Shown here piece by piece: positions 28,476 through 64,000 of a stretch of DNA of 64,000 nucleotides. The notes under the pieces are model-generated. The model did not search any database, had not been told where the DNA came from, and worked only from the letters and a program-made list of their open reading frames with translations. A program made the translations under genes and the position numbers. The number at the start of each line of letters is the position of its first letter. Positions within the stretch are counted from its first letter, which is position 1. Source of the stretch: an uncultured Saprospiraceae bacterium (GTDB lineage: Bacteria; Bacteroidota; Bacteroidia; Chitinophagales; Saprospiraceae); assembly GCA_937951615.1 (NCBI GenBank), contig CALFBH010000006.1, forward strand, positions 36,326 through 100,325. The letters are read 5' to 3'.

Positions 28476-29909
28476 TTAAGTTTTGGTGAGTGTTGTTGAA
28501 ATATCTGTACGGGCAGCTTGTATAGCAGGGAGTAAGGCAGCCAAAAAACCAATGCCTAGCGCAGCGGATATCAGCAGCCATTCTTCGCGTAAAAAATGCC
28601 AGGCAGAAAAGCTATAACGATAAGCGTCTTCTAAGGTCTGAGCTAAAAAATACATACCCAAATGCCCCAGCATTAAACCAGCAATACAACCCAAAATAGC
28701 AATCAATAGCCCTTCGAGAATAATCAGTAAAAATAATCGGGAAGCACCTGCACCCATCACGCGCATGAGTGCCAGCTCGTAACGGCGTTTTCGCAAAGAA
28801 GAAAATAAAGCAATAAATATACTGAGTCCCGACACAACGATAATGACACCTGCCAATACCCGCAAAGTCATTTCCGCATTGTGCATCAAGCTATACAAAC
28901 GATTGATTTCGATAGCTGGAGTGGCAGCCTGTAAACCTTCTACTTTATTGACTTTGCGCGGCATACTGAGTGCCTGAAAGTTGCGCCCTCTGAATTTGAC
29001 GAGCAGTGCGGTGATTTCGGCGTTGTCGGGGGCGGAGTGTAGTGTGTTGATGTGTTGCGGGTTGCGGGTTGCGGGTTGCGAGTTAGGGGTTACGGGTTGT
29101 GGGTTGTTCCCTTCGTCATTCGTTATTCGGTGTTCGATATTCGATATTCCTTCGTCATGTTGCGGGTTGCGGGTTGTGGGTTGCGAGTTAGGGGTTACAG
29201 GTTGTGGGTTGTTCCCTTCGATATTCGATATTCCTTCGTCGTGTTGTGTGTTATCGTGTTGATGTCCCTCTCCTCTCTCTTCTCCTTTCCCATGTGTCAG
29301 CCAAAAACTCTGTGGTGTGGTGAGTAATAACTGGTCGATGATAGCTCCAGTAGGTTGGAGGATGCCGACGATTTTAAAAGTCGTTTCGTCGTGAGTGGCA
29401 TGATCGCTATGATCGAAACCATGTGAACTGTGAAACTGATCGCCAATTTGTAAATCGAGGGCATCGGCTACGGCTGCGCCTGCGGTGACTTCTAGATTAT
29501 TGGAATATGATTGTCCGGTGGCAATTTTTGCTTTATATAAGTTGAAAAAATCGGGTGTTGTACCGACCAGCCGGTAGCCGCGATAGCTGTCGCCGAGCGC
29601 GAGTGGAATGGCTTGTTCTATAAAAGGATGATTGGGTTTTAAATATGGGCGGACGTCGGATAAACGAATATTACCAGTAGGTGCATCTATATGATACATA
29701 CTACTCATGACGAGCTGAAGTGGGCTGCCTTTCGCGCCAATAACAAGATCAATGCCTGCCAGATTTTTTTTAAAATTATCCTGTACCTGCTTTTGTAATA
29801 AGAGCAGAAAAGTAACTAGCCCGATACCCAATGCAAAAAGCAGTACGCTGAGTAAGGTCGCCCATGGTTTGTGCAGGATGCTTTTCCAGCTTAGGTTGAA
29901 CAGGTTCAT
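28476..29909 (-). CDS. FtsX-like ABC transporter permease with repeat-derived Asn/Pro/Gln-rich linker
   Basis: N-terminal TM MNLFNLSWKSILHKPWATLLSVLLFALGIGLVTFLLLLQKQV; C-terminal FtsX TM block VIIVVSGLSIFIALFSSLRKRRYELALMRVMGAGASRLF. Confidence 0.85.
   Translation of the reverse strand: MNLFNLSWKSILHKPWATLLSVLLFALGIGLVTFLLLLQKQVQDNFKKNLAGIDLVIGAKGSPLQLVMSSMYHIDAPTGNIRLSDVRPYLKPNHPFIEQAIPLALGDSYRGYRLVGTTPDFFNLYKAKIATGQSYSNNLEVTAGAAVADALDLQIGDQFHSSHGFDHSDHATHDETTFKIVGILQPTGAIIDQLLLTTPQSFWLTHGKGEERGEGHQHDNTQHDEGISNIEGNNPQPVTPNSQPTTRNPQHDEGISNIEHRITNDEGNNPQPVTPNSQPATRNPQHINTLHSAPDNAEITALLVKFRGRNFQALSMPRKVNKVEGLQAATPAIEINRLYSLMHNAEMTLRVLAGVIIVVSGLSIFIALFSSLRKRRYELALMRVMGAGASRLFLLIILEGLLIAILGCIAGLMLGHLGMYFLAQTLEDAYRYSFSAWHFLREEWLLISAALGIGFLAALLPAIQAARTDISTTLTKT
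29051..29290 (-). repeat. In-frame repeat insertion inside the permease CDS: two direct copies of (GGGTTGC)n + (CGATATT)n plus an AGAGAG-rich tract
   Basis: Protein shows NPQPVTPNSQPTTRNPQHDEGISNIE and NPQPVTPNSQPATRNPQH; DNA shows gggttgcgggttgcgagttaggggttac[g/a]ggttgtgggttgttcccttcg twice. Confidence 0.85.
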
Positions 29910-39957: not shown

Positions 39958-40173
39958 TGCCTTCGGCACTAAATAAATCAGTACATTTTGAATGTCGAAC
40001 ACCGAATATCGAACACCGAATATCGAAGTATTAATACCTTAAACTGCTAAAATGAAGAGGCTTTTTTAGCAGGATTAAAAATAAATAAATCACTGACTTA
40101 CAGCCTATTTTACTTTAAAATTAATTATACATACTTCGTAATTCGATATTCCTTGTTCGATATTCGATATTCC
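39955..40173. repeat. Composite element: palindrome TAGTGCCTTCGGCACTA (contains the stop codon) + inverted CGATATT heptamer arrays
   Basis: Paralogous to 14197-14402 (shared tgaatgtcgaacaccgaatatcga...agtatta). Confidence 0.8.
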
Positions 40174-41077: not shown

Positions 41078-41186
41078 GTCGATGGTCAATAGTCGATAGA
41101 AAAGGCAATACATTTTGCTTTGCAAAATGCCTGAAAACGGAATGATTTATTTTACAGCTATCGTCTATCGACCATGGACTATCGAC
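41078..41186. repeat. Composite cassette: GTCGATGGTCAATAGTCGATAG / CATTTTGC-TTT-GCAAAATG / inverted CTATCGACCATGGACTATCGAC
   Basis: Arms 41078-41099 and 41165-41186; central palindrome 41111-41129. Confidence 0.85.
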
Positions 41187-41193
41187 TTTTTTT

Positions 41194-43980
41194 CTAAAAA
41201 ACAAAAGGATCGGCTCGATTTCGGGAATACGGAATTTTCAGAAAATCCAGCGAGGACGGCTTTACGCGAAGGAAAAAAGAATATGTTCGACGTTCTGGCT
41301 GCCAGCTAAAACCTGTCTCCCAGCAATGGAGATCACGGTAAAAGGATAAATCGGGATAGCTGACGCGCTTGCGCACAAAATCATAACCAATATTTCCGAC
41401 ATCCATACTGAGTTTATCCGTCAGGTTGAATTTAGTGCGACTAAGGTTGAGGTTGTTGGTCGTAATTTTGATGGTGTCTTTGCCATTTTCAAAAGCATTA
41501 CTCACACGGAAAGAATAGGAAAAAGTGAGCGAGCCGATGAATTGTTTACCTCGATTGGTATTAGGCTTATTGTCGCTTTCGGTCTTATCTTTCTTAAAGG
41601 CTTCTTCTATGTCGCGAGGATTGAGTCGGGTACTGAGATTGACAAATCCACCTGTAAAACGAGCCAATCGTTTATTGGCTTTCCATTCATAAATGTCCAC
41701 CGTTCTACCATCATTATCGCGGGAATAAGGATCAAAATTTGCACCAAAACGCAGATCCACGACTTTGAATAATTTGGTATTTCCATTCGCAGAAATCTGG
41801 CTTAAATTAAGCGAATCCGCAGCAAAATTATAAGCTGAACTGACATTAAAACTGTTCAGTAATTTGACTTTTTTGAGTTCTTGTGCCGTATCTCGTCGAG
41901 TCCGAAATTTACCTTCCAGTGTATTGGCTATACTGAATGACATGGATGATTGCCGCCCACCACGCGGCACTGTTCCATACAAGCCACCGTCAAAAGGCGA
42001 ATAAATAGCTACCGAATCCGGGTAACGATTGTCCACTTGCACTTCTTCATAATACTTCCAAAACTCCCTTTCGTAGTCCGGCGAAAAATTCATAGATACA
42101 GAAGGCCGCATTACATGCCGAATCGCCTGTCCTTTTTTGCCCAAAGGCAACATCCCATACAACGTCGTATTTATGCTCACCCCACCCGATACTTCCCGCA
42201 AGGAACGAAAACCAAATTTATCGCCATCTATAATCTGACCAAAATCCGTCGTGTCCATACTAATGCTGTTGATGAGCGTATCACCTTCAGCCGTAATCTC
42301 AAAAATGGTGTCTGTTTCTATGACGTTTTCAGCGTCGAAGGTACGAGCCAAAGTGTTGAAATACCATTTTTCGGAATAACGAACATTGGGCGTAACGGTA
42401 AAATATTTTGCAAGATTAAAACTCGCACTAACAGGCAAATCGTGGCGCACACCGTATTCCATATCATCAAAGACTTCTCTGGTAAAAAGCAGGGTGTCTT
42501 TGGTTTGAATCCGATTTTCCGCACGAGCGGTATAGCGCATATTTATTTTTTCGTACCAACGATCCTTGCCGATTTTGTTTTTTCTTTCAAATGGATTAAT
42601 CTGTGAAACCCGAAAATCAACTTGTGGGAAGTTAATCGTCATATCGCGGGTATTGGTATTTTGGCTATGCGAAAAACTGGTCGATAGGGAATAAGGTTTG
42701 CCAGGAAAACGTTTGCTCAAGGATACATTAGAACTCAGCGTATTGGTCAGAACGCTTTGCGCATCATTATAATTATTCGTGAAAAACGAACCCGTTCCCA
42801 AATTCAAACTTGCACTGAAAGTGCGTGTCGGATGCGCGCTGGCAGCCTGCGAATGGTTCCATCGGATATTAAAATCCTGTTCTCTACCATAACCAGGAAC
42901 ACCTTTGATGTCCAGTTTTCGATAAGAAAAACTCAGCCCAAACCCACCATTATATTTGTAGCGTTTGGTATAATTGGAACTGGCACTCAATCCCCAGCTT
43001 CCTCGCGTATATATATCACCAGTCACCTGCAAATCGAGATAATCATTAAGTGCTTTATAATAACCAATATTGCGTAAGCCAAAACCCAGCGTCGGTGAAA
43101 ATTCGTAATTGCGAGGAAAGATCAGCCCAGAACGTTGTCCTTGTTTTAAGGGAAAAAAACCAAAAGGCAGCCAAAGCGGAGTAGGAACGTGCTCAATTTC
43201 TACATTAGAACCACCAACCACAATCAATTTATTGGGAATAATTTTTGCCCGACTACTGCGAATACCAAAATGCGGATCTTCGGCATTACAAGTCGTGTAG
43301 AGTGTGCCTTTTGCGAAAGCAATGTCTTCATGGTCAGCATCTTTCTGACTCCGCAAATCGAATTTTACACTACTCGACAATAAATAACCATCACCTTCTT
43401 CTGTGCGGACATTATAGACCTTGCCCTTATTTGTCCTGTAATTATAGCGGATGGTGTCAGAGTTGAATTGCTGCTCACCATCTATAAATTCGGGACGACC
43501 GACATAATTACCCAGACTGTCTTCATATCCATAAGCGACTGCAATATCATTTGCCCAATCAAAAATAATGCGGTCGGCTTTGAGTGTCATGTCTTCATAA
43601 ACCAAAGAGGCATTACCAAATAAATATATCCGCTCTCCCGCCACATCGTACAACATAGAATCCGAGGCTTCATATTCAACCTCAGCCGACAAAGAATCAC
43701 TGGAATATTTAATCGATGTAGGGCGAAAAGCTGTTGTGGTGTCTGTATTGAAAGTTGGATTATTGGCTTTCTTCACAGCCGCCCGAGCTTCCTCAAATCG
43801 TTGTCGAATACTATCCGTAACTGGAATTTTATTGGTGCCTTTACCCGTACCGATGAGTTCTGTTTTCTCGGATTCATTAGCCGGCTCGCCAGTTTCCTGC
43901 GCATAGACGCCTATCGAACTGCATAAAAACAGAACAAATAATGCTTTAATAAATAAATTTGTACGGTATTTGTAAGGCAT
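41194..43980 (-). CDS. lptD: LPS-assembly protein LptD-like outer membrane protein
   Basis: OstA-like N-terminal domain (YEASDSMLYDVAGERIYLFGNASLVYEDMTLKADRIIFDW) then a large beta-barrel; PLWLPFGFFPLKQGQRSGLIFPRNYEFSPTLGFGLRNIGYY. Confidence 0.85.
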   Translation of the reverse strand: MPYKYRTNLFIKALFVLFLCSSIGVYAQETGEPANESEKTELIGTGKGTNKIPVTDSIRQRFEEARAAVKKANNPTFNTDTTTAFRPTSIKYSSDSLSAEVEYEASDSMLYDVAGERIYLFGNASLVYEDMTLKADRIIFDWANDIAVAYGYEDSLGNYVGRPEFIDGEQQFNSDTIRYNYRTNKGKVYNVRTEEGDGYLLSSSVKFDLRSQKDADHEDIAFAKGTLYTTCNAEDPHFGIRSSRAKIIPNKLIVVGGSNVEIEHVPTPLWLPFGFFPLKQGQRSGLIFPRNYEFSPTLGFGLRNIGYYKALNDYLDLQVTGDIYTRGSWGLSASSNYTKRYKYNGGFGLSFSYRKLDIKGVPGYGREQDFNIRWNHSQAASAHPTRTFSASLNLGTGSFFTNNYNDAQSVLTNTLSSNVSLSKRFPGKPYSLSTSFSHSQNTNTRDMTINFPQVDFRVSQINPFERKNKIGKDRWYEKINMRYTARAENRIQTKDTLLFTREVFDDMEYGVRHDLPVSASFNLAKYFTVTPNVRYSEKWYFNTLARTFDAENVIETDTIFEITAEGDTLINSISMDTTDFGQIIDGDKFGFRSLREVSGGVSINTTLYGMLPLGKKGQAIRHVMRPSVSMNFSPDYEREFWKYYEEVQVDNRYPDSVAIYSPFDGGLYGTVPRGGRQSSMSFSIANTLEGKFRTRRDTAQELKKVKLLNSFNVSSAYNFAADSLNLSQISANGNTKLFKVVDLRFGANFDPYSRDNDGRTVDIYEWKANKRLARFTGGFVNLSTRLNPRDIEEAFKKDKTESDNKPNTNRGKQFIGSLTFSYSFRVSNAFENGKDTIKITTNNLNLSRTKFNLTDKLSMDVGNIGYDFVRKRVSYPDLSFYRDLHCWETGFSWQPERRTYSFFLRVKPSSLDFLKIPYSRNRADPFVF

Positions 43981-44167
43981 ATATATTGTAATGATTGAAT
44001 TGGAGAATGATTGAATAAGAGAATGTTTTTGTTTTATCATTCACTCATTTCTCCACGACCACAAAAAACAGCATAATTTTGATGAAAAAAAAGTTGTTAG
44101 TACTTCATTTAACAAAAAATTGGCATAAAGTGTGGTGTTTTTAGACTACATTAACACAAATGAAACA

Positions 44168-44959
44168 ATGAGAAATCTGTTATTACTTATTTTACTGGTA
44201 TTTTGCATGTCTTTTTATATAGACGGCAAAAGTGATGCCTCAGTTGGGCAGACGCCTGGACAGGTCGTGCGCACAGTCGTCATTGACCCCGGACATGGAG
44301 GGAAAGACATGGGCTGTACTGGCGCACATTCAGAGGAAAAACACATTGTATTGTCTATCGCAAAAAAGCTGGGCAATATGATAGAAGCCAACTTTTCTGA
44401 TGTTCAGGTGGTTTATACCAGAGAGCAGGATGAGTTTGTGCCTTTATATGAAAGGGCGGAAATTGCCAATCAAAATCAGGGCGATGTATTTATTTCTATT
44501 CATTGCAATGCGGTGAACAAAAAGTACATCAAAGGTACAGAGACTTTTATAATGGGACTCGGCAAAGGCGGTTCGATTTCTGATGTTGCCCGTCGGGAAA
44601 ACGAAGTCATCACACTGGAAGAAAATTTCATCAACACCTACGGTTTTCATCCCGATTCAGATGAAGGCTATATTATTTTCAATTTGATACAAAACGCTTA
44701 CGAGGCACAAAGTATCCGGCTTGCCGCCAATATGGAAACAGAATTTAAGCAATCCACAGGACGGGAAAGTCGAGGAGTGAAAAAAGAACCTTTCATCGTC
44801 TTGCGCATGACAGATATGCCAAGCGTGCTGGTAGAATCAGGTTTCCTGACCAATACAGAGGACGAAAATTTTCTCCTGTCGGAAACCGGACAAACCCAAA
44901 TGGCAGAAGCCATGTGGCGGGCTTTTAGCAATTATAAAAAAGAAGTAGAAGAGCGTTAA
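44168..44959 (+). CDS. N-acetylmuramoyl-L-alanine amidase (Amidase_3)
   Basis: VVIDPGHGGKDMGCTGAHSEEKHIVLSIAKKLG; FISIHCNAVNKKYIKGTETF; PSVLVESGFLTNTEDE. Confidence 0.92.
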   Translation: MRNLLLLILLVFCMSFYIDGKSDASVGQTPGQVVRTVVIDPGHGGKDMGCTGAHSEEKHIVLSIAKKLGNMIEANFSDVQVVYTREQDEFVPLYERAEIANQNQGDVFISIHCNAVNKKYIKGTETFIMGLGKGGSISDVARRENEVITLEENFINTYGFHPDSDEGYIIFNLIQNAYEAQSIRLAANMETEFKQSTGRESRGVKKEPFIVLRMTDMPSVLVESGFLTNTEDENFLLSETGQTQMAEAMWRAFSNYKKEVEER

Positions 44960-44963
44960 ATTT

Positions 44964-45113
44964 GTCCATAGTCCATGGTCGATAGTCCATAGCTGATATT
45001 TGACAATGTGCCCACTTTTTAAGCTTCATACGCATTTTGCAAAGCAAAATGAAATACTAAAATGGCTTAAAAATTTAAAAATAGCCATCGACTATGGACC
45101 ATGGACTATCGAC
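44964..45113. repeat. Composite cassette: GTCCATAGTCCATGGTCGATAGTCCATAGCT / CATTTTGC-AAA-GCAAAATG / inverted arm
   Basis: Arms 44964-44993 and 45083-45113; central palindrome 45033-45051. Confidence 0.85.
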
Positions 45114-45274
45114 GAAGCCGAACATAATTGTAAGGTTAGCATCAACAAATTCATAGGTTTAACGTATAACAAATTTAATCTTTCAAAATGATTTTCTACT
45201 TTTACGCTCGTTTTGGAATGGAAATCTAAAAACATACTCCAAACTCTTGATCATCAAAAAATAAAAATAACACA

Positions 45275-54775: not shown

Positions 54776-54870
54776 ATTCCTAATATATTCCTCAGTGGTT
54801 CTTCCAGTTTATCATGTCGGGTAAATTAAATTTTATATCTTTTGAGTCAGGTTTTGGTGCAAATTGTTCT

Positions 54871-54964
54871 ATTGCTATGATGGTTAAATTGTTATCGTGA
54901 TTTTTTGCGCAGCAAAAAACAATAGCCATGAAGCAATTTCAACAATGAAACCATCCTAATCACC
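54871..54964. repeat. Composite cassette: imperfect inverted arms around TTTTTTGC-GCA-GCAAAAAA
   Basis: attgctatgatggttaaattgttatcgtga / ttttttgcgcagcaaaaaa / aatagccatgaagcaatttcaacaatgaaaccatcctaatcacc. Confidence 0.75.
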
Positions 54965-54994
54965 AGACAATATTAACTTGGCTGACGACTAAGC

Positions 54995-61773: not shown

Positions 61774-61850
61774 CAGTTACCAGTTACCAGTTACCAGTTA
61801 CCAGTTACCAGTTACCAGTTACCAGTTACCAGTTACCAGTTACCAGTTAC
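61774..61850. repeat. Perfect heptanucleotide microsatellite (CAGTTAC)11
   Basis: 11 uninterrupted units counted directly, 6 nt 3' of the parE stop. Confidence 0.97.
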
Positions 61851-61856
61851 CAATCA

Positions 61857-63826: not shown

Positions 63827-64000
63827 TAGTTGGGTCGATGGTCGATGGTCCATAGTCCATAGACTAGACATAAAGAGCATTTAGTCGAGTGCCGAAAGGC
63901 ACTCGACCATCGACCATCGACCATCGACCATCGACCATCGACCATCGACCATCGACCATCGACCATCGACCATCGACCATCGACCATCGACCATCGACCA
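63827..64000. repeat. GATGGTC cassette: forward heptamer arm, GAA-core hairpin TCGAGTGCCGAAAGGCACTCGA, then (CGACCAT)n of at least 13 units running off the window
   Basis: Direct reading; forward arm 63827-63860, hairpin 63885-63906, array from 63904. Confidence 0.95.

Follow-up and report, generated by a model that had tools for sequence, protein, structure and literature searches.

Hairpin cassettes with a conserved apex and exchangeable inverted ends: a candidate REPIN-like family in a Saprospiraceae genome

The palindromic core TTTTGC-N3-GCAAAA is present in 384 copies in the 6.96-Mb genome of an uncultured Saprospiraceae bacterium (G000), compared with one copy of a reversed control, and stands between arms that belong to many unrelated but always inverted families. 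We read these cassettes, with moderate confidence, as REPIN-like, hairpin-capped non-autonomous elements of HUH/Y1 transposases, here with ends made of tandem heptamers; this reading is the best because of their structure, dispersal and placement, together with two direct links to Y1 elements. They are not classed as REPINs because two defining tests of that class gave a different answer: the ends are heptamers, and no cognate RAYT gene flanked by the core was found. On this evidence single-stranded DNA and a REPIN-type element are favoured over a small RNA, since the rule governing the loop is blind to gene orientation and REPINs and derivatives of Y1 transposons elsewhere are capped by the same core.

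Cassettes in the window and in related genomes

The window, the whole 64-kb stretch of DNA analysed here, contains three exact cores (0.05 expected), at 41113-41127 (loop TTT, or AAA on the other strand), 45035-45049 (AAA) and 54903-54917 (GCA). A first-pass annotation had proposed three cassettes in this DNA, and each was recovered in place. The features are as follows:

41078-41100, plus strand: cassette 1 left arm, GTCSATR heptamers (GTCGATG GTCAATA GTCGATA G), starting 9 nt past the response-regulator stop codon
41111-41129, minus strand: cassette 1 core, CATTTTGC-AAA-GCAAAATG as read on that strand
41164-41186, plus strand: cassette 1 right arm, inverted heptamers, ending 7 nt short of the final base of the convergent lptD stop codon
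44964-44994, plus strand: cassette 2 left arm (GTCCATA GTCCATG GTCGATA GTCCATA), starting 5 nt past the amidase stop codon
45033-45051, plus strand: cassette 2 core, CATTTTGC-AAA-GCAAAATG
45083-45113, plus strand: cassette 2 right arm, inverted heptamers
54815-54965, plus strand: cassette 3, with TTTTTTGC-GCA-GCAAAAAA at 54901-54919 and long conserved, weakly inverted flanks; outer boundaries approximate
63833-64000, plus strand: related cassette type 2, with a GTCSATR arm, a spacer, an apical hairpin GTCGAGTGCC-GAAA-GGCACTCGAC and then a perfect (TCGACCA)14 array running off the contig end
39990-40172, plus strand: inverted heptamer cassette lacking the TTTTGC core, GAATATCGAACACC... / ATTCGATATTC

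Cassette 1 occupies the gap separating the response-regulator and lptD stop codons. Its inverted arms (41078-41100 and 41164-41186) are 87% complementary, those of cassette 2 (44961-44994 and 45083-45116) 85%, and both cassettes fold much better than shuffled sequences, as DNA and as RNA (z -4.7 to -8.5). The heptamers of the window cassettes are tandem, not palindromic, and carry no GTAG guide. Cassette 3, located between convergent genes, shows weak arm pairing (z about -2), with no arm pair above the repeat-search threshold; it is a member of a separate, highly conserved subfamily with the same core, of which at least nine near-identical, clustered copies are found in the sampled genome. 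A search of the window with the Rfam 15 covariance models gave no match.

The first-pass annotation expected further arm-palindrome-arm copies in the genome, and the 384 core copies bear this out. The core is also abundant in congeners, with 44 copies in G001 (MAG-32), 62 in G002, 224 in G003 (Saprospiraceae MAG-183), 92 in G004 and 36 in G005, while other genera of the family and order usually have 0-4 copies (maximum 25), near background in most. Viral or plasmid carriage was considered and set aside, as the search returned just scattered single phage-contig matches embedded in unrelated sequence, as was a cis-encoded protein, given that no gene family recurs next to the cores.

Cassettes were analysed in detail in 1.95 Mb (28%) of the genome, sampled in pieces, with genes taken from crude ORF calls. 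Core neighbourhoods were convergent in 24 cases (15 expected by length), tandem in 56 and divergent in only 6 (23 expected, p 4e-6), and in cassettes with paired arms the outer arm edge lies a median of 9.5 nt from the stop codon. By these measures the cassettes are, as required of REPINs, extragenic, near 3' ends and rare between divergent genes; the same placement close behind stop codons has been described for REPs (PMC3733652).

The loop rule and DNA mini-hairpins

The three bases of the loop follow the pattern R-N-A in 365 of the 384 copies genome-wide. In the sampled 1.95 Mb this holds on one strand for 100 of 102 loops (AAA 33, GAA 24, GCA 14, GTA 13, GGA 6, ATA 6, AGA 3, ACA 1), compared with 35% of the triloops on other 6-bp stems. 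The rule extends to G003 (204/224), G004 (87/92), G002 (55/62) and G005 (34/36), while G001 has only 21/44. It follows from this pattern that the first and third loop bases are never Watson-Crick partners but instead G.A or A.A, as in the closing pairs of sheared DNA triloops. Cores with a GNA loop, read as single-stranded DNA, are the extraordinarily stable mini-hairpin d(GCGNAGC): a GNA loop on at least two G-C pairs forms such a structure, with a Tm of 78 C for GCGAAGC (PMC4686876). For the AAA triplet, a solved hairpin with a sheared A.A triloop is named in a title cited in PMC6479982. The energy model used here scores all triloops alike, without a GNA bonus, and support for the R-N-A preference comes from the literature.

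The cassettes thus resemble the d(GC-GNA-GC) and GNNA mini-hairpins in two ways, through the R-N-A loop that the core places on GC/GC (GC-RNA-GC below) and through the loops of the second cassette type. The latter has the apex GAGTGCC-GNNA-GGCACTC, at 63833-64000 and at eight other sites, and its loop is GAAA, GCAA or GCGA, of the stable GNNA class in 9/9. The difference is one of context: d(GC-GNA-GC) is familiar from physical chemistry and from aptamers, and the literature examined does not mention it as the apex of a mobile repeat.

The orientation of the rule is independent of the genes nearby. Between tandem genes the R-N-A loop lies on the coding strand in 27 cases and on the opposite strand in 29, so that gene direction is immaterial. 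A replication-strand bias was likewise rejected (53 vs 39 by GC skew, not significant in a binomial test). Nor could the rule be tied to the presence of Y1 genes: G001, with its relaxed loops, gave no PF01797 hit, but none was found in G004 either, which keeps the rule and whose 69% complete assembly bears on that absence; a later profile search for Y1 genes gave one weak match in G001 and two in G004.

Arm families and orthologous sites

The arms have no common alignment outside the core. They fall into many unrelated families, of which GTCSATR heptamers are the commonest; others are TTGAGTTGA, GTGTTGTC, GGTGATT, ATGATGA, TTTCATTGT, GGGTTGCG, GTAG-REPs and further types, in part tandem 7-9-mers. 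The first-pass view of the cassette as a structured unit, its central palindrome conserved and its arm families exchangeable, holds well beyond the window. A conservative arm score puts 70 of 122 cassettes above the 99% level of shuffled sequences, in keeping with the single hairpin into which a REPIN folds, although pairing strength differs among arms and some copies are chimeric and unpaired. Families share an arm polarity, the left arm being richer in G than C (42:10 by independent clusters) and the right in C than G (49:4, likewise), and the same polarity is seen in G003, G004 and G005. In an inner subfamily the copies have AACAGTTTA..TAAACTGTT in common outside the heptamers; no target-site duplication, which a DDE-type MITE has in addition to its terminal inverted repeats, was established, and no excision event or pair of filled and empty sites was seen.

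The left arm of a cassette matches its own right arm far better than it matches arms of other families (mean percentile 0.86, n=122, p 1e-18), a result repeated in a second set from three congeners (0.87, n=62, p 4e-11). Within a family, the cassette's own partner arm is no better than that of another member (0.45, not significant). Taken together, these results show that arms covary by block and not by base. The covariation anticipated in the first-pass annotation is thus real for families, left and right arms being of matching type, and fails for single-base changes within a family, which go uncompensated; where compensatory changes were looked for, block replacement was seen instead. When inverted GTCSATR pairs were picked irrespective of the core (n=46), 31 had the exact core, 2 had one mismatch and 13 had no core, 9 of these 13 being the second cassette type.

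One orthologous site supports the exchange of arms. Behind gcvH, the same exact core is found in G000, G002 and G003, with loops GCA, GAA and AAA and with three unrelated inverted arm families, so that at this one site the arms have been wholly swapped and the core kept, as the annotation's exchangeable arms would have it; the site can also be explained by independent re-insertion instead of in-place arm replacement. Another orthologous pair (G003 L342 and G004 L345, about 90% identical) has the same core stem in both genomes, with the loop ATA in one and GTA in the other, and arm substitutions are uncompensated. Among congener genes that have a core and whose ortholog falls within the sampled 1.95 Mb of G000, the core was present at the ortholog in 4 of 27 cases, two of the four being of uncertain orthology, and absent in 23; for control genes without a core it was present in 0 of 34 (p 0.03). 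As the core is absent at most G000 orthologs, most sites turn over.

Links to Y1 transposases and alternative readings

Two findings connect the core directly to HUH/Y1 elements. In MAG-183, a RAYT gene (C161) is flanked on both sides by a REPIN, a GTAG-REP doublet, with the identical core at its centre, GTAGCACGGTCTGTAGACCGTG-TTTCATT-TTTTGCGTAGCAAAA-AATGGGTG-CGGTCTACAGACCGCGCTAC; the far-side copy is broken by the contig end inside its left half. GTAG-REP arms are found on 12 of 22 additional sampled cores of this genome, so that the GTAG guide is present there in part only. The second link comes from Duganella and Massilia, where AAAGTCGGGGTCAGCTCTGGCAATCGGACATTT, a repeat that includes the TIRYT motif GGGGWSAS known from the literature, stands on both sides of a Y1 gene; the same genomes hold gene-less copies consisting of a TIR, TTTTGC-GNA-GCAAAA and the inverted TIR. 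Comparing the two arrangements, the core replaces the transposase gene. These betaproteobacterial elements were found by a core search, which confines the sampling to TTTTGC-type apices, and they differ from the window cassettes in that their TIRs are unique sequence and not heptamers. The same TIRs flank a Y1 gene in Duganella and Massilia only; in the Saprospiraceae genome no such pair was found, nor any TIRYT element with heptamer ends. The core is absent from the flanks of the Y1/RAYT genes found in this genome, on C31, C37, C38, C61, C111 and C123 with a fragment on C1. Mobilisation by these IS200/RAYT genes was rejected, as those on C31, C61, C111, C37 and C38 are flanked by palindrome families of their own, which recur elsewhere in the genome.

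Like REPINs and BIMEs with their RAYTs, the cassettes have two inverted ends in one hairpin, are extragenic and number in the hundreds, lie flush with 3' ends, are rare between divergent genes and have a counterpart in known hybrid dimers (PMC3116915; PMC3733652). The main differences are that published REPINs conserve their ends and vary the spacer, whereas the cassettes conserve the apex and exchange the ends, and that the window cassettes end in tandem heptamers in place of a GTAG guide. The cassettes may also resemble cyanobacterial repeats: in STRR heptamers and the heptanucleotide stem of the Nostoc tRNA-Leu intron, degenerate heptamer repeats pair across a stem. We know of no conserved mini-hairpin core in these cyanobacterial repeats.

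The position bias and structure would also suit a function at RNA 3' ends. That the cassettes are host-maintained RNA elements, either bidirectional terminators or 3'-end stabilisers of mRNA whose arms pair in the transcript and which sit where termination is needed, is possible but unlikely. Their position flush with stop codons, their avoidance of the gaps between divergent genes, the high stability of the RNA folds formed by either strand, the pairing preserved behind gcvH despite sequence replacement and the ability of REPs to act at the RNA level (PMC3733652) all speak for it. However, the T-tract expected of an intrinsic terminator was not found behind the arms (TTTT at 7% and AAAA at 16% of 96 outer edges), the loop rule is unrelated to the transcribed strand, the core is missing behind 23 of 27 G000 orthologs, base-by-base complementarity is not maintained within arm families, and pairing strength varies to the point of chimeric, unpaired copies. 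A 3'-end role in RNA could be a secondary use.

It is less probable still that the cassettes are neutral mutational products, in which stable single-stranded mini-hairpins provoke slippage and template switching and repeats with their mirror copies accrue without transposition. Arms made partly of tandem 7-9-mers, each seemingly drawn independently from a single repeat dictionary within its family, and the existence of coreless inverted microsatellite palindromes fit this idea, but it does not account for spacers and core common to dispersed copies, for near-miss cores in only 2 inverted GTCSATR pairs against 31 exact ones, for the same core in RAYT-linked REPINs and Y1-TIR derivatives or for placement strictly at gene 3' ends. 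Very improbable is a duplex site at which the core would serve as palindromic operator for a nucleoid protein, gyrase or recombinase: an exact 12-base palindromic stem recurs genome-wide, yet a duplex palindrome leaves unexplained why the loop shuns complementary first and third bases for R..A, and the arms would have no use.

Under the preferred reading as REPIN-like elements, the cassettes are presumably mobile in this genome. When a locus becomes single-stranded, the GC-RNA-GC apex would close first and pull both ends together, and a Y1-type HUH transposase of the RAYT, TIRYT or subclass-1.2 class may then act on the element as single-stranded DNA, cutting and copying it. Whatever inverted end pair the enzyme accepts would suffice, letting arms turn over while the apex stays; tandem 7-9-mer ends presumably lengthen by slippage and may be swapped between copies, and gene 3' ends may tolerate such insertions or profit from the RNA hairpins formed there.

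More tentatively, and with rather less confidence than for the cassettes themselves, the GC-RNA-GC mini-hairpin may serve across phyla, through convergence, as a general cap for non-autonomous HUH/Y1 elements whose ends can be swapped in place; the gcvH site offers a natural experiment on such arm replacement. If the cap is the conserved part, one genome can bear many end dialects on it, pure tandem heptamers included. REPINs and other hairpins mobilised by Y1 enzymes are known by their conserved ends, and a family with a conserved apex and interchangeable ends reverses that. It would give the GNA mini-hairpin, an in vitro curiosity, a natural role in the mobility of single-stranded DNA.

Heptamer arrays and a coreless cassette in the window

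Several heptamer arrays lie in the window apart from the main cassette family, which carries the TTTTGC-N3-GCAAAA mini-hairpin core at its apex:

28476-29909, minus strand: open reading frame of a MacB/FtsX-type permease gene
29054-29211: GTTGCGG and ATTCGAT heptamer arrays, inside this gene
39990-40172: inverted heptamer cassette, arms GAATATCGAACACC / GTTCGATATTC
61774-61852: perfect CAGTTAC array, 11.3 copies

The arrays in the permease gene are apparently in-frame insertions. The cassette at 39990-40172 has neither the TTTTGC core nor the usual polarity of the arms, with G over C on the left and C over G on the right.

The second cassette type and its long array

63833-64000: second cassette type, apex GAGTGCC-GAAA-GGCACTC; its (TCGACCA)14 array is perfect and is cut off by the contig end

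In the same assembly at least six contig ends (C6, C10, C11, C18, C25 and C34) terminate in the TCGACCA array, which is therefore too long for the assembler to have crossed. Second-type cassettes at other sampled loci (L058, 12491-12586; L013, 2263-2428; and similar ones) carry a degenerate four-unit array in one arm and a long perfect array in the other, which suggests recent expansion on one side.

Y1 transposase genes and intergenic palindromes

Three loci (L045, L046 and L241) hold 150-aa TnpA genes of the Y1 (HUH-type) transposase family that resemble subclass 1.2 (Y...Q..HH) of PMC6006769, for which that paper lists no REP structures. These genes have palindromes on either side (GCCCTGAAAGGGC; GCAAAAGCACAGGGTTTAAACCCTGTGCTTTTGC), relatives of which were found at further places in the genus. 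Another Y1 gene, on contig G000:C123 of the window's own genome (L047), adjoins tandem GGGGTCACAGG palindromes; this contig looks unlike the remaining genome in sequence character and is possibly a contaminant of the assembly.

In the sampled part of the window's own genome, inverted repeats were found in 208 of 759 intergenic regions, at a score that only 4 shuffles reach. Several of the strongest of these families resemble sequences that flank a Y1 gene on the genome, so a large share of the genome's intergenic palindromes may be Y1-derived.
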